Below are positions 9,251-59,828 of a DNA stretch of 64,000 nucleotides, one piece after another (the first letter of the stretch is position 1; each line of letters starts with the position of its first letter). A program made the translations under genes and the position numbers. Source of the stretch: Terriglobia bacterium (lineage in GTDB: Bacteria > Acidobacteriota > Terriglobia > Terriglobales > Acidobacteriaceae); the NCBI GenBank assembly GCA_020073165.1, contig JAIQFP010000005.1, positions 1 through 64,000 on the forward strand, written 5' to 3'. The notes beneath the pieces are model-generated. The model had not been told where the DNA came from. It did not search any database and worked only from the letters and a program-made list of their open reading frames with translations.

Positions 9251-11806
9251 ATGAGCGTTACTCCCACGCAACTCGGGACCGCAAGCGGCGGCTTGAGCGG
9301 CAGTCGTGCCGCGTCGACCTTGGCTGGACGGGAAGCGGCAAATGCCCGTGTTGCCAGAGTATTCTTCTTTCTTGGGTCCCGGTTCGCCTTCGGCGGGTTT
9401 CTGCTGCTCACGTCGGTGTATATCCTGCTGCTTTATATCCCGTTCACCTATTTTGGCTTCATTCACGATCCGCTGCTGGGATGGCTGCCGGTATTCGTGC
9501 GCATCCATCCCTACCTTTTCGGAATCCTGCTCGGGGCGACGGTAGTGACCTTGCTGCCCGAGCTGCGCGCGGCGCGGACGCGGAGATCGGCGGCGGCCTT
9601 TGTGCTGCTGAACGGAGTGGTATGCGTCTACTTTCTGGCTCGACCGTCGCTGGGGAGCATGTTGCGTGATCTGTTCACCTATGTGTGGGCCTTGCTCTGC
9701 TTGTTCCCCCTGATGTGGCTGGCAGCGCTGGACCTAGCGGGCAGAGAGGAAGGGAAGACCGAGATGGCAACACGGCCGCAGAGAGGGGTGAATCTGTCGA
9801 CCACAACCCTCGCTGCGCTGTTGGTGACATTCGTGTTTGCGACAACGTCGCTGCTGCAGCGGGCGCTTCATGAAAGCTCCGGCGCCCAGGGATCGTGGCT
9901 GCGGGAGCTTGGGACGAGCCTGGTGTTCCACTTGGTCATCTTTACCGCGGTGGGCGCTGTCATCTGGGGAATGCGAGCCGCGACACGGAGAACGCACTGG
10001 CCGGAGCAGACATACTTCGTGGTCACTCGCGCAGTGGCGTGGCTGATCTGCTTTGAGGTGATCCGCGGCATCGCGTTGCCGACGATCTCGTTTGATGGGG
10101 TGCAGGCGAATCTGTTTGCCGCGGTGTTTGCCCTGGCGCTGGTGGCGTACGCCACCGGAATCATGGCAAAACTGCGCACGGGACTGAGCGTGACGGCAGG
10201 GTGGAACAGTGGGCGGCCCCGGGCCTGGCAACTTATCGTCTGCGGACTTTTGCTGCTGGCGGCGTGCTACGCCATCCCGGTGGTCATTGGGCGCACCGAC
10301 TGGGACTTTGTCCTGCAGAAGATTGCGGTGCTGCTGGTCTGGCTGAGCGTAGTCGGTCTTCTAGGCTGGGCAGGCGCCGCGTTGCAAGGGAGACGGTTGT
10401 GGATAACCAGCGTTGTGGCGCTGGTTTTCGCGACCGCAGGATTTGGAGCTTACCGGGCGCTGGCTTCCTCCCACTTCGAGGGGCAGGCGGAATGGACGGC
10501 AACGTTCGAGAGTTATGCCGGGGCGGACATTTCCTTCAAGACGGCCTACGACATTGTGTCGCGCTCCATGGATAACGAAGCCTATGACGGCTTTTACCGC
10601 TTTCTGCGGCAGAATACGAACCTGGGCCGAGACGTGGCCGTGGGCCCCGCGGACACCCGCCTGGTCAGCGATCTGAAACCCACCGTAGGTGAAAAACCCA
10701 ACATCTTCGTCTTCGTGATCGACAGCCTGCGCCGGGACTACATCTCGCCGTACAGCGCTTCCGTTACTTACACGCCGGAGATCGGCAGCTTCGCCCGCGA
10801 CAGCGTGGTCATGCAAAATGCCTTCACGCGCTATGCGGGGACGGCGCTGTCGGAGCCCGCCATCTGGGTGGGCGCAATGCAGTTGCACAAGCAATACATC
10901 GAGCCCTTCTATCCCATGAACAACCTGCAGAAGCTGCTCGATACTGAAGGCTACCAGAGCTACGTCAGTGTGGATCCCATTCTGCGAATCATCTTGCGGC
11001 CGTCGCCGGCGATGACGGAACTGGACAAGGACACAAAGTTCTGGGGCGATCTGGATTTCATCCCCACGCTGAAAGAATTGCAAGCCAAAATCGAGACACG
11101 GAGCGACAAGAAGAGGCCCATCTTTGCCTACACCCAACCGCAGAACGTGCACACGCTCACGCTGGAGCGCTCGCGGCGAAGCGGCAGCCGCCGGGAGATC
11201 AGCATTTATGAGCTGCAACGCATGGACACGGCCTTCGGTGAATTTGTGCAGTTCCTCAAGCGGCAGGGCCTGTACGACAACAGCATCATTATCCTGACCT
11301 CCGATCATGGCGACTCCTACGGCGAATTTGGCCGCTACGGGCACGCGGATTTTCTTTTCCCGGAGATCATCAAGATCCCCTTAATCATCCACTTGCCGCC
11401 GCGGATGCGGGAGAAGCTGGTGTGGGACACGCAGCAGATCGCCTTTAATCTGGACATCACGCCGAGCCTTTACTACCTGCTGGGTCATCCGCCGGCGGTA
11501 AAGAACGAGCTGTTCGGCCGGCCGCTGTTCACGCAGACACGGGAAGAGCAGGCGGGCGCGGTTCGCTCCGAATACCTGATTGCTTCCAGCTACGCTCCGG
11601 TGTACGGGATTCTCGGGGATGATGGCAGGTCGCTGTTCATTGTCGATGCGGTCAATCGCAGAAACTACTTCTACAATCTCACCAACGATCCGGAGGGCGT
11701 GCACAACCGCGTGACTCCGCAAATTCTCGAGCAGAACGAGCCGGTGATCCGCCAAGGGGTCACCTTGATCGATCGCTTTTACGGCTACACCCCGGCTAGC
11801 CACTGA
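9251..11806 (+). CDS. Membrane-anchored alkaline-phosphatase/sulfatase-fold enzyme
   Basis: An 851-aa protein. Residues about 30-420 contain around nine hydrophobic segments, and residues about 480-780 form a sulfatase-fold domain facing outward: NIFVFVIDSLRRDY gives the metal-binding Asp and TSDHGDSYGE the later metal ligands. At the nucleophile position there is YAGTALSEPA, a Thr. It lacks the Cys-x-Pro-x-Arg motif of formylglycine sulfatases, so it resembles phosphoglycerol or phosphoethanolamine transferases of the LtaS/EptA type more than true sulfatases. Envelope polymer modification is the best guess. Only a weak ribosome site precedes ATG 9251. Confidence 0.8.
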   Translation: MSVTPTQLGTASGGLSGSRAASTLAGREAANARVARVFFFLGSRFAFGGFLLLTSVYILLLYIPFTYFGFIHDPLLGWLPVFVRIHPYLFGILLGATVVTLLPELRAARTRRSAAAFVLLNGVVCVYFLARPSLGSMLRDLFTYVWALLCLFPLMWLAALDLAGREEGKTEMATRPQRGVNLSTTTLAALLVTFVFATTSLLQRALHESSGAQGSWLRELGTSLVFHLVIFTAVGAVIWGMRAATRRTHWPEQTYFVVTRAVAWLICFEVIRGIALPTISFDGVQANLFAAVFALALVAYATGIMAKLRTGLSVTAGWNSGRPRAWQLIVCGLLLLAACYAIPVVIGRTDWDFVLQKIAVLLVWLSVVGLLGWAGAALQGRRLWITSVVALVFATAGFGAYRALASSHFEGQAEWTATFESYAGADISFKTAYDIVSRSMDNEAYDGFYRFLRQNTNLGRDVAVGPADTRLVSDLKPTVGEKPNIFVFVIDSLRRDYISPYSASVTYTPEIGSFARDSVVMQNAFTRYAGTALSEPAIWVGAMQLHKQYIEPFYPMNNLQKLLDTEGYQSYVSVDPILRIILRPSPAMTELDKDTKFWGDLDFIPTLKELQAKIETRSDKKRPIFAYTQPQNVHTLTLERSRRSGSRREISIYELQRMDTAFGEFVQFLKRQGLYDNSIIILTSDHGDSYGEFGRYGHADFLFPEIIKIPLIIHLPPRMREKLVWDTQQIAFNLDITPSLYYLLGHPPAVKNELFGRPLFTQTREEQAGAVRSEYLIASSYAPVYGILGDDGRSLFIVDAVNRRNYFYNLTNDPEGVHNRVTPQILEQNEPVIRQGVTLIDRFYGYTPASH

Positions 11807-11831
11807 TCTGCGACGCCACAGCTTTGATTTC

Positions 11832-13490
11832 TTATACGGCCACGCTGGGCAGAAATCGCGGCGGCTTGCGGACCTTGGTTGCCTGCTCGAATCCGTACGC
11901 GATCTTCAGCAGTGTGGGCTCACTCCAGTCCCGGCCAAAGAAGGAAATCCCCACCGGCAGGCCAGAGATGAATCCTGCGGGCACGGTGATGTCGGGATAT
12001 CCCGCCACTGCCGCGGCATTGGAACTTCCGCCCGCAGCGTGATCGCCGTTCACCAGGTCGGTGAGCCAGGCGGGGCCGGCGGTTGGGGCCACGATGGCGT
12101 CCAGGTTGAACTTGTCCATCACGGCGTCTATGCCTTCTTTGCGCGACAGACGGTGATTTGCGTCCAAAGCGTCCAGGTATTCCTTGCTGGTCAGCGGACC
12201 CTTGGCCTGGGCCTTGAGGAAGATGTCCTGGGCGAACCAGGGCATCTCTTTGTCGCGGTTGCGGTCATTGAACTCGATAATTTCCTGTAGAGAGTGCACC
12301 GGAGCGGCCGGGCCAAGACCCTCCAGATAAGAGTTGAGATCGGCCTTAAGTTCATAGAGGAGCACCGTGAGCTCGGTATCGTCGAACTTACCGTGCGACG
12401 GCAGGTCGGCGGGATCAATAATCTCTGCCCCCTGACGCTTCATCTCCTCGAGCAGGCTGTTCATCAGAACGTCCACGCCGTCGTGAAAGCCGAAATACTT
12501 CCGCGCTACGCCAATCCGCGCGCCGCGCAATCCGTTGGGATCGAGAAAGCGGGTGTAATCGGTCTGAGCCTTGCCCTGGCTTTCGGCCGTTGCGGCATCG
12601 CGCGGGTCCACCCCTGCCAGCGTGCCCAACAGAATGGCCGCATCCCGCAGCGTGCGCGCCATGGGACCAGCGGTGTCCTGGCTGTGTGCGATGGGAATGA
12701 TGCCGGAGCGACTGACCAGGCCGAGCGTGGGCTTGATGCCTACCAGCCCGTTGGCGGATGCAGGACACACGACCGAGCCATCGGTCTCCGTACCCACAGC
12801 GACGGCACAGAAATTGGATGCGACCGCCGCACCCGAGCCCGAACTGGAGCCGCAAGGATTGCGATCGAGCGCGTAGGGGTTCCTGGTCAATCCGCCGCGG
12901 CCGCTCCAGCCGCTGGTGGAATGGCTGGAACGAATGTTGGCCCACTCGCTGAGATTGGTTTTGCCGAGAATGACGGCTCCTGCGGTGCGCAGTTGCTGGA
13001 CGACGAAGGAGTCCCCAACTGGCCGCGAGCGCAGTAGAGCGAGGGATCCAGCTGTGGTCATCATGCCGTCGGCGGTGTCGATGTTGTCTTTGATCAAGAC
13101 GGAGATGCCGTGCATAGGGCCGCGCGCGCCCTTCTGCTTGCGCTCCTGGTCGAGGGAGTCGGCGATCGAAAGGGCATCGCGATTGACTTCAATCACGCTA
13201 TTCACCGCCGGGCCCTGTTTGTCGAGCGACTCAATCCGCGCCAGGTATGTCTCGGCCAGGGAGCGAGCGGTAAACTTGCCGGAATTCATGCCCGTTTGGA
13301 GGTCAGCGATGGTGATCTCGTCGAGCTCAAACGGCGAGACATCCGGGGCGGACGGAGAGGATGGCGCTAACACGCGAGCGCCCGCCAAAGCCGGCAGCAC
13401 GGCGGCGCCGACTCCGGTGAGCAGACTGGTCTGCAGGAAACGGCGTCGGGGGGCTTCGCAATCAGGCAGTGGGTCTGTCTTTGGGCTCAA
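11832..13490 (-). CDS. Tat-exported amidase-signature hydrolase
   Basis: A 552-aa protein of the amidase signature family. IKDNID supplies the catalytic Lys, CGSSSGSGAA the cis-Ser, and GTETDGSVVCPAS the nucleophile Ser. The N-terminus has a twin-arginine signal (RRRFLQTSLLTGVGAAVLPA). The start is taken as TTG 13490 because AAGGAG lies 8 bases upstream; an ATG at 13544 in the same frame would add 18 residues before the signal and lacks a ribosome site. Such enzymes hydrolyse amides or acylamino bonds, and the periplasmic substrate is unknown. It converges on the sulfatase-fold gene. Confidence 0.88.
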   Translation of the reverse strand: MSPKTDPLPDCEAPRRRFLQTSLLTGVGAAVLPALAGARVLAPSSPSAPDVSPFELDEITIADLQTGMNSGKFTARSLAETYLARIESLDKQGPAVNSVIEVNRDALSIADSLDQERKQKGARGPMHGISVLIKDNIDTADGMMTTAGSLALLRSRPVGDSFVVQQLRTAGAVILGKTNLSEWANIRSSHSTSGWSGRGGLTRNPYALDRNPCGSSSGSGAAVASNFCAVAVGTETDGSVVCPASANGLVGIKPTLGLVSRSGIIPIAHSQDTAGPMARTLRDAAILLGTLAGVDPRDAATAESQGKAQTDYTRFLDPNGLRGARIGVARKYFGFHDGVDVLMNSLLEEMKRQGAEIIDPADLPSHGKFDDTELTVLLYELKADLNSYLEGLGPAAPVHSLQEIIEFNDRNRDKEMPWFAQDIFLKAQAKGPLTSKEYLDALDANHRLSRKEGIDAVMDKFNLDAIVAPTAGPAWLTDLVNGDHAAGGSSNAAAVAGYPDITVPAGFISGLPVGISFFGRDWSEPTLLKIAYGFEQATKVRKPPRFLPSVAV

Positions 13491-13616
13491 GGGCGTTTCT
13501 CCTTGGAAAAGAAACGAAATTATAGGCGATGGGTTGGCATACATCCGACAGGAACTTGGACGGGCTACGCCCTGTTCGTGTTTTTCCCACAGGGGTGAGC
13601 GCCGACATCAGCAGAA

Positions 13617-13640
13617 AAGGCAGCGCACAGGCGCTGCCTT
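13617..13640 (-). terminator. Rho-independent terminator
   Basis: On the minus strand AAGGCAGCGC, loop CTGT, GCGCTGCCTT, then TTCTG. It lies 23 bases after the stop of the DUF948-like gene at 13663. Confidence 0.8.
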
Positions 13641-13662
13641 CTACCTTCCGATTCCGGACCGC

Positions 13663-14169
13663 CTAGATGAACATTTCGTCCTGTGGAACGCCGATGCCAT
13701 TACGCCGGCGGCGCCTGCTGCCAAGCAGGAACTCCAATCCCGCAGTCACCCCCTGCAGCAGCCCGGAGAGTTGCCGCACCGGCGACACCACCGTCTTGTG
13801 GACCATGTCGGTGGTCTCTTCCACGCGGTCGATAGTGCGGGTGAGCAGTTCGTCGCCACGAATGATCTGCAAGCGGGCGCGGTCGATCACATCGCTGACG
13901 GTGGCGTCCAGCCGCTCCATCTGGGAGCGAACCATGGTAGTGGTGTCGCTGACATTCGTGACCGCAATCTCGATCTTGGGGCGCAACTCGGTCAGCATGG
14001 AGTGCGCCAATTCCGCCGTGGGCACGACCCTGGTCTTGACCTCGGTGAGCAGCGCTTCCATGCGGGCCCGGCTCTTTTGCACGCCCAGGTACAGGACAAT
14101 GAGAATGACCGCTTGAGTGAACACAGCGGCCGAGGTTACGGCAATCGAGATAGTAAGGAGGTTCTCCAT
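13663..14169 (-). CDS. DUF948-like membrane-anchored coiled-coil protein
   Basis: A 168-aa protein. One N-terminal transmembrane helix (ISIAVTSAAVFTQAVILIVLYLG) is followed by a long amphipathic coiled coil with heptads (MEALLTEVKTRVVP, MVRSQMERLDATVSDVIDRA) and a basic tail, RRRRRN. This layout matches DUF948 general-stress or envelope proteins. The start at 14169 is preferred because CGGAG lies about 8 bases before it; the codon two upstream (14175) is also ATG. It is followed 55 bases on by the YtxH-like gene in opposite order of transcription (both minus), which suggests a shared envelope-stress locus. Confidence 0.7.
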   Translation of the reverse strand: MENLLTISIAVTSAAVFTQAVILIVLYLGVQKSRARMEALLTEVKTRVVPTAELAHSMLTELRPKIEIAVTNVSDTTTMVRSQMERLDATVSDVIDRARLQIIRGDELLTRTIDRVEETTDMVHKTVVSPVRQLSGLLQGVTAGLEFLLGSRRRRRNGIGVPQDEMFI

Positions 14170-55019: not shown

Positions 55020-55994
55020 TTACTTCTTATTGACCCATTCCCAGCCGAAGCGGCCTTTGATGCACAGGTGGCCATTGGTGATCTGCTGGTCGAGCGGCGA
55101 GGTCACTTTGACGATCTTCTCGTCCTGTACCTGCAGGGTGAGGGTGCAACCCACGCCGCAATAGGGACAGATCGTATCGGCGCGCGTTTGTTTGGACTCG
55201 TCCCAGGTGCCCGCCCGGCGCATGACGTATTCGCTCTTGAACATCAGCGCGCCCGTGGGACAGACGCCGATGCAGTTGCCGCAATAGACGCACGCCGAGT
55301 CGGTGAGCGGGGCGTCGTATTCGGTAGAGATGCGTGCCGTGAAGCCGCGTCCGGCGACCGCGATGGCGAAAGTGTTCTGCGCGTCCACGCCGCAAGCTTC
55401 CACGCACTTGTAGCACAGGATGCATTTGCCGTAGTCGCGCACATAGAGGTCGTTGTCGATCTTGACGGGCTGGGCGACTGTGGCGGCGTTGCCATTCTCC
55501 GGAGCGTGATGATGCCCGGGCTGGGCGGCATCACGGTTTCCGGCTGGCCGGGCTGCGTCCCCGAATCGTTCCGGTTGCGCGCCGTAACGTTTCATGTATT
55601 CCTGGAACTGCGGCGCAGTGGAGACATCCACCGACGAGGCCAGCAACTCCAGCACCAGACGGCGGCTCAAACGGACCCGCTCGGAATCGGTCTTCACCAC
55701 CATGCCGGGCTCGGCTTGGCGCGAGCATGCGGGTACCAGCATGCGCGACCCCTCGACCTCCACCACGCAGATGCGGCATACGTTGACTGGGGTGAGATTC
55801 TCCAGGAAGCAGAGCGTCGGGGTGTCAATCCCGATGCTGCGCGCGGCCTGCAAGAGCGTGGAACCTTCGGGAACGGAGACAGCCTTTCCGTCGATGCTGA
55901 TCTCGACCATGCGCCTGGGACGCGGCGGGGGCAGAATGGGCAACGGGCCGCGCGGGACGGGCGTCTTCATGTCGGGAGCGTTTTGCGTGCTCAT
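55020..55994 (-). CDS. Formate dehydrogenase Fe-S subunit (split N-terminal half of FdsA/FdhA)
   Basis: A 324-aa protein. It has a [2Fe-2S] ferredoxin domain (TLCFLENLTPVNVCRICVVE), a NuoG-like His-rich linker (GHHHAPENG), and two [4Fe-4S] motifs (CILCYKCVEACG and CVYCGNCIGVCPTG). It ends with the cluster motif that normally opens the molybdenum domain, CPYCGVGCTLTLQ...NGHLC. It stops at GRFGWEWVNKK, exactly where contiguous FdsA/FdhA chains continue into the catalytic domain. The missing half is encoded at 57915-59828 as a separate gene upstream. It overlaps the NuoEF-like gene by four bases. Confidence 0.88.
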   Translation of the reverse strand: MSTQNAPDMKTPVPRGPLPILPPPRPRRMVEISIDGKAVSVPEGSTLLQAARSIGIDTPTLCFLENLTPVNVCRICVVEVEGSRMLVPACSRQAEPGMVVKTDSERVRLSRRLVLELLASSVDVSTAPQFQEYMKRYGAQPERFGDAARPAGNRDAAQPGHHHAPENGNAATVAQPVKIDNDLYVRDYGKCILCYKCVEACGVDAQNTFAIAVAGRGFTARISTEYDAPLTDSACVYCGNCIGVCPTGALMFKSEYVMRRAGTWDESKQTRADTICPYCGVGCTLTLQVQDEKIVKVTSPLDQQITNGHLCIKGRFGWEWVNKK

Positions 55995-57778
55995 CGCTTG
56001 TCCTCAAAAACCGGCAGTCGTGCCAGCGCCGACTCAATTGCACTCGAAGCGGTTTGGCCCAGGCCGCAAATAGAGGCGTCGCGCATGGCCTGGCCCACTT
56101 CCTTCAGCAAGACCAGTTCGTTCGGGCGAGATCCCAACGGTTTGCCGGCCGCCAGGCGATGCAGGATTTCCTCCTGGCGAACCGTCCCGACGCGGCAGGG
56201 AACGCACTGGCCGCAGGATTCGTCGCGAAAGAAGGAAGCAATACGCAGCAGAATCTGGCGCAGATCTACAGTGTCGTCGAACGGCATGACCACGGCGGAG
56301 CCCAGCGTAGCCCCAGCAGCGCGCGTGCCTTCAAAGGTCAGGGGAGTGTCGAGGTCTTTGGAGCCGAGGAAGGCGCCGGCGGCTCCGCCGATCAGAACCG
56401 CTTGCAGCTTCCCACTGCCGCCGACGCCACCAGCCAGATTGAGCAACTGCCGCAGGGTGGTCCCGAAAGGTACTTCATACACTCCGGGCTTGGCCACGTG
56501 GCCGGAGAGGCAGAACAGTTTTGTCCCGGTGGAGCGCTCAGTGCCGACGGCGGCGAAGGCTTTTCCACCTTCCATGATGATGTACGGGACATTCAGAAGC
56601 GTCTCGACATTCTGGATGATCGTGGGCTGGCCGAAGAGGCCGACCTGGGTGGGGAACGGAGGCTTGTTACGCGGCTCCCCGCGGTGGCCCTCGATCGAGT
56701 TGAGCATGGCAGTCTCTTCACCGCAGATGTAGGCCCCGGCCCCGACGCGTAATTCGATGTCGAAACGCACGCCGTGCCCCAGGATGTTGTCGCCCAGGAA
56801 GCTGCGGATGCGGCACTCGCGGATGGCGTGTTCGAGACGCCGCCGGGCCAGCGGATACTCTCCGCGAATGTAAAGGTAGCCTTGCTCGCACCCAGTGGCG
56901 AAAGCGGCGATGATCATGGATTCGATTACGGCATAGGGGTCGCCTTCCATGAGCACGCGGTCTTTGAAGGTGCCGGGCTCGGACTCATCGGCGTTGCACA
57001 CCAGGTATCGCGGCCGCGCGGCGGTGAGGATAGACGTCCACTTCTGGCCGCAGGGGAAAGCGGCGCCGCCGCGCCCGACCAGTTTCGATTCGACAACTTC
57101 GCGGACCACGGCGCCGGGCCCAATTGCAAACGCTCGCCGCAGCGCCACAAAGCCGCCGGTGGCGCGGTAGTCATCGAGGCTCTCCGGGTTGATTTGGGCG
57201 ATGCGGCGCAGCAGTTTCAGCCCGGGCTGACCCAGTTGCGGAACGGAAGCAGCCAGCGCGGGCTGGGGGACCGCCGTGCCCTGCAAGGCGGTCCGAATAC
57301 TTTCGGTTTTCGCGGATGCGAGCGATTGTTCGAAGTGCTGTTTTCCAGCGCTGTGCACTAAAGCAGCAGGCGCGTGTTCACAAAGGCCAAGGCAGGGACT
57401 GCGCCGCCAAGTCTCGCCATCCTTGCTCGAACCTTCCGGCCCGTGGGACTTCTCCAACTCCGAGCAAAGTTTTTCGGCACCCTTGGCTTTGCAGGCAATA
57501 TCGTCGCAGATGTGGGCTACGGCCGGGGGTTGTGGCCGGGTGGAGAAAAGTCCGTAGAAATCGGCCACGCCGAAGGCCTCGGCGGGCGGGACATCCAAGG
57601 CGCGGCTGGCGTAGTTCAGGGCTCCGGGGCTGATCCAGCCAATGTGGTTCTGGAGGGCGTGCAGGATGGGCAGCAGGTAAGAACGCCGGGTGCCGTTGGC
57701 GTTGGCGGGAATGGACACGCCGTCAACCGCGGCTTTCTCGTCCGCTGTCACTTCGGCGTCGGTAAAGTGCAGATCCAT
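55991..57778 (-). CDS. NuoE-NuoF fusion subunit (FdsG-FdsB-like) of NAD-linked formate dehydrogenase
   Basis: A 595-aa protein. Residues 1-150 are NuoE-like with a [2Fe-2S] site (CDDIAC and SPCLGLCE). The rest is NuoF-like: GRGGAAFPCGQKWTSI and CNADESEPGTFKDRVLM bind NADH and FMN, and ESCGQCVPCRVGT...ICGLG holds a [4Fe-4S] cluster. It passes electrons between formate oxidation and NAD+. The start is ATG 57778; the upstream part of the frame lacks NuoE similarity. It overlaps the Fe-S subunit gene by four bases, 136 bases after the catalytic gene. Confidence 0.9.
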   Translation of the reverse strand: MDLHFTDAEVTADEKAAVDGVSIPANANGTRRSYLLPILHALQNHIGWISPGALNYASRALDVPPAEAFGVADFYGLFSTRPQPPAVAHICDDIACKAKGAEKLCSELEKSHGPEGSSKDGETWRRSPCLGLCEHAPAALVHSAGKQHFEQSLASAKTESIRTALQGTAVPQPALAASVPQLGQPGLKLLRRIAQINPESLDDYRATGGFVALRRAFAIGPGAVVREVVESKLVGRGGAAFPCGQKWTSILTAARPRYLVCNADESEPGTFKDRVLMEGDPYAVIESMIIAAFATGCEQGYLYIRGEYPLARRRLEHAIRECRIRSFLGDNILGHGVRFDIELRVGAGAYICGEETAMLNSIEGHRGEPRNKPPFPTQVGLFGQPTIIQNVETLLNVPYIIMEGGKAFAAVGTERSTGTKLFCLSGHVAKPGVYEVPFGTTLRQLLNLAGGVGGSGKLQAVLIGGAAGAFLGSKDLDTPLTFEGTRAAGATLGSAVVMPFDDTVDLRQILLRIASFFRDESCGQCVPCRVGTVRQEEILHRLAAGKPLGSRPNELVLLKEVGQAMRDASICGLGQTASSAIESALARLPVFEDKR

Positions 57779-57914
57779 GCTCGGAGTCGGTCCCCTGGCA
57801 CACGGGAGAAACCAAACCAGATACCCCAACGGCTAAAGCCGTACTTGCTTCGCGAACCGTTCCTGCAGCGCTGAAGCGCAGCGCCACCCAAAACCAGGTT
57901 TCTGAAGCGGACTT

Positions 57915-59828
57915 CTAGACTGCCACAGGTTCTGTTTTCCTGACCTTTTCGATACGCACCGCGCTGGCTTTGAATTCCGAGGTGCCGGACTTCGGGTCCA
58001 CCGCATCAATCGTCAACTCGTTGGTCGCCACCTGGTCGGGGAAGTGCAAGGTCATAAAGGCCAGCCCCGGACGCAAACCGGGATCGAAGCGTACCGGAGC
58101 CAGCACGGAGCCGCGGCGCGACACCACTCGCACTGTTTCCCCCTCTTGAATGCCATATTTCTCGGCGTCCTGCGCGGAAATGTCGATCGTCTCCCCGTGC
58201 CGCAACGGCGACGCGTATCGGGACGTCTGCACCCCGGTGTTGTACGAATCCAGGCGGCGGCCGGTGGTCAAACGAATTGGGAACTCGTCATCCAGTACAT
58301 CCAGCGGTGGCTCGTACTCCACGCAACAGAGTGGCGCGCGGGGCCCGATCACCGGACGCGCCCACAAACGCCCGTGCAGATACTGTTCGCCGGGATGATT
58401 CTCGTCATAGCAAGGCCACTGGATTCCATGCATCTGCTCGAGCCGCGTATAGCTCATGCCGGCGTGCATCGGACTCAGGCTGCGCAGTTCGTTCCAGAGT
58501 TCTTCCGCGCTGGGATTGCCCAGGTCGCGTCCCATGCGGCGCGCAAGATGGCAGAGGATTTCAATGTCATCGCGCACGCCCGACGGCGGCGGCAGGGCAC
58601 GGCGCACGCGTTGCACGCGGCGTTCGCTGTTGGTGACGGTGCCTTCCGACTCGCACCATCCGGCAGCGGCAGGGAAAACCACGTCGGCCATTTCGGCAGT
58701 CTTCGACATGAGCATGTCCTGCACCACCAGGATGTCTAGGCCGTCCAGCAGCTTGGTGGTGCGGTGCTGGTCGGCCTCCGAGTTTGCCGGGTTCTCACCC
58801 ATCACGTATAGCGCCTTGAGTTCGCCGCGCTCCATGGCATCGAACATTCCGCTCAGATGCCAGCCCTTCTTGGGCGGGATTTTCGCGTCCCAGGTTTTCT
58901 CGAACTTGCCTCGCAGTTCGTCGTTTTCCACGTGCTGGAATCCCGGCAGGCGGTCGGGAAGCGCACCCATGTCGCCGCCACCCTGGACATTGTTCTGCCC
59001 ACGCAGTGGATTGAGTCCCGATCCGTAAGTCCCCACGTGGCCGGTCAGTACGCCCAGATTGATCAGCGCCAGGACATTGTCCACGGCGTTGTGGTGCTCG
59101 GTGATGCCCAGCGTCCAGCAGATCTGGGCGCGGTCAGCGCGCGCATAGGCGTGGGCCAATTCGCGGACTGCCGCCGCGGGCACTCCGCAAATCTTCGCCG
59201 CATAGTCCAGCGTGTACTTCTGAACGTGTCGCCGAAAGTCCTCGAAGCCGCTGGTTGCGTTCTCGATGAAGCTGCGGTTCTCGAGGCCCGCCGCGATGAT
59301 CTCCCGCGCCATGGCGTTGGCCAGGGCGATGTCGGTTCCCACGTGCAGGCCAAGCCACTTCTCCGCACACTGGGCCGAGCTGGTGCGCCGCGGGTCCACC
59401 ACGAAGAGCCGGGCCCCGTTGTGGATTCCCTTGAGCACGTGATGGAAGAAGATCGGATGCGTCTCCCGGGCATTCGATCCCCAGAGGACGATAAAATCCG
59501 TCTCTTCTATCTCGCGATAGGAGCTGGTGCCGCCGCCTGCCCCGAAGACCGTCGCCAGACCGACGACGCTAGGGGCGTGTCAAGTGCGGTTGCAACTATC
59601 GATATTGTTACTGCCCACCACCACCCGCGCGAACTTCTGGGCCAGGAAGTTCATCTCGTTGGTCGTCTTCGAGCAACTGAACATGCCGAAGCTTTGCGGG
59701 CCGTGCTTGCGCACGGTGTCGCCAAAGCCTTGCGCGGCACGGTCGAGCGCTTCGTCCCATGTAGCCGGACGCAGCTTGCTGCCCTCACGGACCAGCGGTG
59801 TGGTGAGCCGGGAATCCTGAGTTGCCAT
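57915..59828 (-). CDS. fdhF: Formate dehydrogenase catalytic subunit, selenocysteine-containing
   Basis: A 637-aa protein read through an in-frame TGA at 59582-59580 as selenocysteine, residue 83. Upstream of it the protein reads FGMFSCSKTTNEMNFLAQKF and SNNIDSCNRT, downstream HAPSVVGLATVFGAGGG, the exact context of Sec (or Cys) in formate dehydrogenases. The catalytic His follows directly, and the Arg is in PLRGQNNVQGGGDMG. Frame is unbroken on both sides. ATG 59828 has GAGG 6 bases upstream. It binds bis-MGD with Mo or W. The N-terminal Fe-S cluster domain usual in this family is absent and is encoded separately at 55020-55994. Standard annotation would split or truncate it. Confidence 0.92.
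59539..59582 (-). promoter_or_regulatory. UGA codon and SECIS hairpin
   Basis: On the minus strand UGA is followed by CAC, then a stem: GCCCC with GGGGC outside, and CGUCGUC with GGCGACG (one G-U) inside, closing the loop GGUCU. The loop begins 18 bases after UGA. Both the GGUCU loop and this spacing agree with E. coli fdhF as I recall it. Confidence 0.88.

Follow-up and report, generated by a model that had tools for sequence, protein, structure and literature searches.

According to passages of PMC7171172, bacterial formate dehydrogenases (FDHs) all share a subunit that holds the bis-molybdopterin guanine dinucleotide (bis-MGD) cofactor and also binds the proximal [4Fe-4S] cluster; an excerpt of PMC12176258 likewise describes the pair formed by bis-MGD and this cluster as ubiquitous in Mo-dependent FDHs, where the cluster acts as first relay within the catalytic subunit, and puts the two 6.1 Å apart in FDH-H. 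Here we analyze a three-gene locus of a Terriglobia bacterium (assembly GCA_020073165.1) in which the members of this pair appear to be assigned to different polypeptides. The locus lies in contig JAIQFP010000005.1, positions 1-64,000 of the forward strand, and this whole stretch of 64,000 nt is called the window below. We consider it highly probable that the three genes encode a single soluble, cytoplasmic, selenocysteine (Sec)-containing, NAD+-linked FDH to which the proximal cluster, A1, is supplied in trans; this enzyme probably originated by replacement of the catalytic core followed by spread between phyla.

Comparison with described formate dehydrogenases

FdsABGD of Rhodobacter capsulatus (6tg9; PMC7171172, in part) and the window enzyme have the same kinds of domains, namely NuoE, NuoF, a [2Fe-2S] domain, the A2/A3 and A1 cluster domains and a bis-MGD core with His and Arg. 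In R. capsulatus, however, FdsA is one chain that carries clusters A1-A5 together with bis-MGD, whereas A1 of the window enzyme is located on another chain; furthermore, the latter has NuoE joined to NuoF in a fusion and Sec in place of Cys (FdsA-type enzymes are given as Cys enzymes in the available portion of PMC10100899), and it lacks the His-Cys3 cluster A4, which in R. capsulatus is found at the dimer interface (same passages of PMC7171172). Thus, one trait of the FdsABG enzymes, the bis-MGD core with Sec/Cys, His and Arg, is present (U83, H84, R276), and another, the residence of the proximal [4Fe-4S] cluster and the Mo/W core on one alpha chain, is absent. FDH-H of Escherichia coli (FdhF, 1aa6) shares with the catalytic protein of the window (hereafter Cat) the Sec-His-Arg active site, the distance to the loop of the selenocysteine insertion sequence (SECIS) and the core fold but, unlike Cat, has A1 at its own N-terminus.

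The sequence-only reading of this DNA, by which the split was first noticed, knew of no described enzyme of this kind. A full-text search, with preprints, most subscription journals and supplements outside its scope, yielded no title or abstract that describes the split, and such a split is unmentioned in the accessible parts of PMC8808070, PMC10100899, PMC7331816 and PMC13397495. PMC3750248 uses the wording 'split gene' for supplementary tables.

Anatomy of the locus and position of the cut

The genes follow one another on the minus strand in the order Cat, NuoEF, Fe-S chain, as the sequence-only reading had proposed, and the relevant features are the following:

57915..59828, minus strand: Cat, catalytic subunit, 637 aa, with predicted binding of bis-MGD (Mo or W) and a predicted Sec83-His84-Arg276 active site
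55991..57778, minus strand: NuoE-NuoF fusion (diaphorase), 595 aa, ATG start; [2Fe-2S], FMN, NAD-binding, N3-type [4Fe-4S]
55020..55994, minus strand: Fe-S chain of 324 aa, with a [2Fe-2S] site, a pair of ferredoxin-type [4Fe-4S] sites and the domain for the proximal [4Fe-4S] cluster A1
55029..55181, minus strand: A1 domain (PF04879), C-terminal in the Fe-S chain, with Cys276, 279, 283, 311 and Lys313
59580..59582, minus strand: in-frame TGA, Sec codon 83 of Cat; TGA in 145 of the 145 relatives examined (partly redundant loci, some genomes having been reached by two routes)
59551..59567, minus strand: top of a SECIS-like hairpin of the bacterial type; its loop, GGTCT, begins 21 nt downstream of the TGA's first base, the same distance as in E. 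coli fdhF

The diaphorase gene, in which Pfam recognizes the NuoE/NuoF domains PF01257, PF01512, PF10531 and PF10589, could alternatively be read as a longer frame from TTG at 57829, and its stop codon overlaps the start of the Fe-S gene in an ATGA.

That the Fe-S half, including the proximal cluster motif, is a separate 324-aa protein and that Cat begins right after this motif is borne out by the Pfam and TIGR01591 assignments. The Molybdop_Fe4S4 domain, PF04879, matches residues 272-322 of the Fe-S chain, and in Cat Pfam detects only the core domains PF00384 and PF01568, with no match to PF04879. The 672 positions of TIGR01591 (Fdh-alpha) are divided in the same manner: residues 274-323 of the Fe-S chain correspond to positions 1-50 and residues 3-626 of Cat to positions 49-672, so that the first 48 positions, which are absent from Cat, are found on the Fe-S chain. 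In FdsA (6tg9_A), the Fe-S family profile covers residues 18-307 and the Cat profile residues 305-932. At the level of individual residues, C8, C11, C15, C42 and K44 of E. coli FDH-H align to positions 276, 279, 283, 311 and 313 of the Fe-S chain, and U140, H141 and R333 to positions 83, 84 and 276 of Cat; all eight (four Cys, Lys, Sec, His, Arg) are invariant in 26 of 26 aligned family members. An AlphaFold2 model of Cat (mean predicted local distance difference test score, pLDDT, 74) aligns over residues 4-631 with residues 305-936 of FdsA 9ktl_A (Z 37.2), so the protein as modeled is the whole catalytic core. Taken together, the profile, residue and model mappings place the cut where two domains meet, with the proximal cluster on one side and the Mo/W site on the other. 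Hence, as the sequence-only reading maintained, the residues predicted to bind the proximal cluster and those predicted to form the active site are carried by two different polypeptides. A catalytic chain made of two polypeptides is also found in formylmethanofuran dehydrogenase (FwdB/FwdD); there, the cut is C-terminal and the cluster stays with the catalytic chain.

The two alignment sets used here, labeled A1 and A2 (names of row sets, not of clusters), comprise 26 rows each. Set A1 omits the class loci L051, L055, L064, L068, L077, L079, L083, L084 and L087, in each case as a second match, for a second stop, at a contig end, or as a near-duplicate of other rows; set A2 omits L051, L055, L065, L068, L077, L079, L083, L084 and L087. 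The His-Cys3 motif of cluster A4 occurs in none of the 26 Fe-S chains, and given that A4 is missing, a different dimer, or none, would be expected. Covalent rejoining of the chains, for example by a split intein, was considered and rejected: the Fe-S chain ends a few to about 45 residues past A1 (26 rows), and Pfam finds no intein in the window proteins. The anatomy given by the sequence-only reading thus stands, with two omissions, the in-frame TGA and the lack of the His-Cys3 cluster.

Predicted selenocysteine in the catalytic subunit

Under genetic code table 11 the Cat frame is not open but is interrupted by a single in-frame TGA, in the motif NNIDSCNRT(TGA)HAPSVVGL, and in the alignment this codon occupies the position of Sec in E. 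coli FDH-H. The SECIS-like hairpin downstream of the TGA is conserved among 115 distinct sequences: the six loop-adjacent base pairs form in 114 or 115 of them, with C-G, T-G and T-A as alternatives at one pair, and the loop reads GGTCT in 111 and GGGCT in 4. An Rfam search of the hairpin gave no match and its single-sequence fold is unremarkable (z -1.0), so the SECIS assignment is founded on this conservation and on the likeness to E. coli fdhF. The window's genome carries both tRNA-Sec and SelB (370.7 bits). The tRNA was also detected in 29 of 30 genomes of the class that have Cat and in all three further Cat genomes, as well as in 5 of 13 class genomes with no Cat match at 1e-80. With a TGA at the metal-ligand position, a SECIS-like hairpin and the Sec machinery at hand, Cat is predicted to be a selenoprotein. 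In one genome (G005:C2), two tRNA-Sec matches above the cut-off, at 1112064-1112158 and 1115713-1115807, lie about 3.6 kb apart. Six other loci (L210, L211, L212, L217, L220 and L222), fused or with A1 on the catalytic chain, also have TGA at the metal-ligand codon and are likely Sec-containing cytoplasmic FDHs, including FdsA-type ones.

Distribution and gene order

Cat of this clade was found in 57 of 299 genomes sampled from the window's class and, by counts made by eye, in 18 of 247 genomes sampled across the window's phylum and in 29 of 251 sampled from the phylum of a Chloroflexota locus. The family is delimited by a gap in identity, with its members at 63% or above and the next relatives only from about 45%, and by frame length, about 630-790 aa except for fragments and seven longer frames of 854-1130 aa (G244, G240, G549, G299, G301, G525, G427), the relatives at about 45% being mostly at least 830 aa long. 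A motif scan found no A1 upstream of Cat at the loci of these seven long frames (L251, L080, L254, L135, L152, L252, L253) or at any of the 151 family loci, of which 145 have at least 250 nt upstream and some are the same genomes reached by two routes. In each of 27 family loci the motif lies downstream, on the Fe-S chain; in each of 30 other loci it immediately precedes the core. These other loci include fused FdsA types, E. coli FdhF and the L216/L224 layout described below.

Among the named loci, which are the best 80 of at least 588 relatives, 38 are labeled Acidobacteriota, 21 Chloroflexota, 6 Actinomycetota and 4 Planctomycetota; Rokuibacteriota, Myxococcota and Vulcanimicrobiota are represented by two each, Gemmatimonadota and Spirochaetota by one each, and three are unassigned. 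The same three genes in the same order, with Cat identities of 63-85%, are thus present in metagenome-assembled genomes (MAGs) that carry the labels of nine phyla and also in Aquisphaera insulae JC669 (L123), the sole isolate among the 80, whose genome (G306) has tRNA-Sec and FdhD as well. The other 79 loci come, by title, from MAGs, so single phylum labels may be binning errors. In a plasmid collection, the 238 records at an E value of 1e-100 or better were all below 60% identity.

The full series Cat-NuoE-NuoF-FeS is present at 32 of 34 class loci and at 64 of the best 80 named loci; NuoE and NuoF share one frame in all 34 class loci, two of which have one stop. Where the order is incomplete, contig ends, a broken Fe-S gene (in one genome) or inserted genes are involved: among the 80, nine loci are partial (a contig end accounts for eight, a broken Fe-S gene for the ninth, L091), and seven have Cat alone, three of these at contig ends. 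L091 is apparently the contig of L051 (G217), in which the Fe-S gene is in two pieces on two contigs. The Fe-S chain was present in all 11 genomes checked, in G217 as the two pieces; ten of the 11 were picked because this gene appeared missing, distant or broken. The split arrangement is a conserved trait that extends far beyond the window's own class; the comparison of gene order and fusion state in related genomes that the sequence-only reading called for reveals the same split and order time and again.

This recurrence leaves practically no room for an assembly error, a sequencing error or a pseudogene, for which the TGA that breaks the Cat frame under table 11 might speak: the same TGA is seen in all of the relatives examined, and the same split and order recur in many separate assemblies, two of them listed as one contig (G046, G157), and in the isolate A. 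insulae. We accordingly rejected both the assembly error, which the sequence-only reading had allowed for, and the pseudogene.

The proposed enzyme and its electron path

The active-site triad of Sec, His and Arg, the linked diaphorase and linked FdhD genes point to a formate dehydrogenase. Cat would bind bis-MGD and take two electrons from formate (or give them to CO2), and the Fe-S chain would dock its C-terminal A1 domain where the N-terminal domain sits in other enzymes of the family. Electrons would then pass from A1 to A2, A3, the [2Fe-2S] cluster, the NuoF cluster, FMN and finally NAD+, in an operation like that of the FdsABG enzymes. With A1 docked from the Fe-S chain, both the electron step from Mo/W to the cluster and the contact made by the conserved Lys would cross a non-covalent subunit interface. 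We infer the complex, its electron path, its direction and its metal from the sequence anatomy, conservation, co-occurrence and Sec signals observed.

Could Cat and NuoEF-FeS instead belong to different complexes, with A1 on the Fe-S chain a relic comparable to cluster N7 of complex I? We regard this as very unlikely. A gap of about 10 kb does separate the Cat gene from the Fe-S gene in some Chloroflexota genomes, but the Cys and Lys residues of A1 are invariant (26/26), Cat lacks an electron exit of its own, and in the class sample 54 of the 57 genomes with Cat also have the Fe-S chain and none of the genomes without Cat has it, a count that leaves out G011 and G041, where the Fe-S matches lie inside long fused-type frames. 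The three Cat genomes without a Fe-S chain are G277, in which the contig ends inside NuoF, G048 (85% complete) and G067 (81% complete). Cat has, moreover, diverged together with its partners: over 86 loci, distances correlate with r 0.81 for Cat and NuoF and with r 0.68 for Cat and the Fe-S chain, both above all 500 permutations. In two genomes with distant genes (G299:C19 and G301:C40), some 10 kb separate Cat from the Fe-S gene, which has FdhD about 3 kb away; tRNA-Sec is found on that contig too.

As regards direction, it seems rather unlikely that the single NAD-linked complex proposed here functions mainly in the reduction of CO2 to formate. FdsA-type enzymes run in both directions in vitro, as stated in an available portion of PMC13397495; a NAD-linked diaphorase, on the other hand, thermodynamically favors formate oxidation.

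The distribution of FdhD, the protein expected to provide the terminal sulfido ligand of Mo/W, is uneven. Outside the class, 39 of 44 Cat genomes have it, and by eye it lies no more than about 15 kb from the genes in 12 of these; in L059 the three genes are flanked by a gene for FdhD and one that is MobA-like. Several observations weigh against the proposed enzyme. No FdhD (PF02634) is recognizable in the window's genome, and only 5 of the 30 Cat genomes of the class have it (the 25 that lack it include the window's); FdhD is essential for FDH activity in Methylorubrum, according to a passage of PMC13197769. On its own, Cat reaches 660.2 bits, short of the TIGR01591 equivalog cut-off of 666.25, and the AlphaFold2 model of the Fe-S chain is poor (mean pLDDT 53.8). 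Among 12 control genomes of the class, 7 have FdhD; the best Cat-like matches of these controls are distant (34-42%) and in long frames.

Origin of the split arrangement

A related but different layout is found in L216 and L224. Like the window enzyme, these loci have a separate, short Fe-S chain with no His-Cys3 motif and a close NuoEF, with NuoE and NuoF fused (read for L224) or adjacent; unlike in the window enzyme, the cut is before A1, which stays on the catalytic chain, and the metal-ligand codon is for Cys. The layout on plasmid pHTUR01 of Haloterrigena turkmenica (L235) is similar, with a separate NuoF. In L216, from a genome of a Chloroflexota sample, a carbonic anhydrase gene (PF00484, 4038-4643) is located between the Fe-S chain and the catalytic chain.

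Trees were built for 27 family loci, picked for spread from those fetched, and the window; the approximately unbiased (AU) test used 16 and the window. The Cat tree places the family, as a single clade (100/100), next to the fused Sec enzymes L210-L212 (97/90), which have TGA at the same codon, L212 with one further stop. In the tree of the ferredoxin part the family is again one clade (100/94) but joins L216, L224 and the fused L219 (100/99), and the NuoF tree unites the family with L216 and L224 (100/99). The AU test rejects the grouping of Cat with L216, L224 and L219 (p 0.011; the group was chosen after the tree had been seen). The nearest A1 domain is that of L224, with a mean identity of 59%.

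Because the diaphorase and Fe-S chain on the one hand and the catalytic core on the other group with different lineages, a better account than simple fission is probably that the catalytic core was exchanged and A1 stayed behind on the ferredoxin chain. The NuoEF and Fe-S module would have come from a lineage whose catalytic chain carried A1; A1 would have been kept by the ferredoxin chain when a Sec FdsA-type core took the place of the remainder of the catalytic chain, and the three genes would afterwards have spread between phyla. Two results detract from this scenario. The NuoF tree holds the family together only weakly as a clade (87/33), and other rows of that tree drew long-branch warnings. 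The second-best A1 match, at 51%, is to L210, a fused Sec enzyme, and since L210 belongs to the other lineage, the A1 similarity is a weak signal, extending over about 52 residues.

Simple fission, in which a fused FdsA would have been severed between A1 and its core and the operon reordered without any module exchange, is possible but distinctly less probable. The same class does contain fused FdsA-type relatives, and of six retrieved, five have the order NuoF-FeS-Cat; Cat groups with fused Sec enzymes with TGA at the codon (L210-L212, 97/90), and the ferredoxin part, too, has one fused protein, L219, in its group. Against fission, NuoF and the ferredoxin part join L216 and L224 (and, for the latter part, L219) at 100/99 while the AU test rejects the placement of Cat in that group. 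Thus, the alternative left open by the sequence-only reading, a lineage trait or a rearrangement, can be narrowed: the trait is conserved across many genomes, whereas the description of a large subunit 'split in two' is probably too simple, as the module trees point to exchange of the core.

Implications of the split

The putative enzyme is a real, conserved and widespread form of NAD-linked selenoformate dehydrogenase whose proximal cluster is predicted to be supplied in trans. At the residue level, the family breaks the stated rule that bis-MGD and the proximal cluster reside on one subunit. We also lean, with less assurance, towards a broader formulation: a widespread FDH family with a cluster-free catalytic polypeptide, in which A1 moved to the ferredoxin chain in a core swap, the Mo/W subunit is an exchangeable plug-in and the first electron step crosses an interface. 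The roles of the cluster, the conserved Lys and the Mo/W site would be separable by omitting one protein, and the family would offer a natural modular catalytic subunit for the engineering of CO2 reduction. Gene callers that use table 11 cut Cat at the TGA, and the Fe-S chain scores higher with hydrogenase, HoxU and NuoG models than with FDH models (NCBI models), so the enzyme is easily missed in MAGs.

Other molybdoenzymes

A second, complete FdsA elsewhere in the genome, which in the sequence-only reading would have made the locus redundant, was not found among the five PF00384 matches of the window's genome. By eye, the four other than Cat are NarG-like (C7), FdhF-like (C23), a molybdopterin oxidoreductase (C5) and NuoG (C17). 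The FdhF-like protein (G000:C23; L016, 4274-6460), 728 aa long, has its own A1 domain and, by eye, no Sec/Cys-His at the metal-ligand position; its neighbors are Fe-S, FAD/NAD-type and complex I antiporter-like genes. In L068, a second molybdoenzyme frame (10871-13879), with an internal stop and a twin-arginine-like start, lies directly downstream of the three genes and looks like a Sec enzyme of the FDH-N type.

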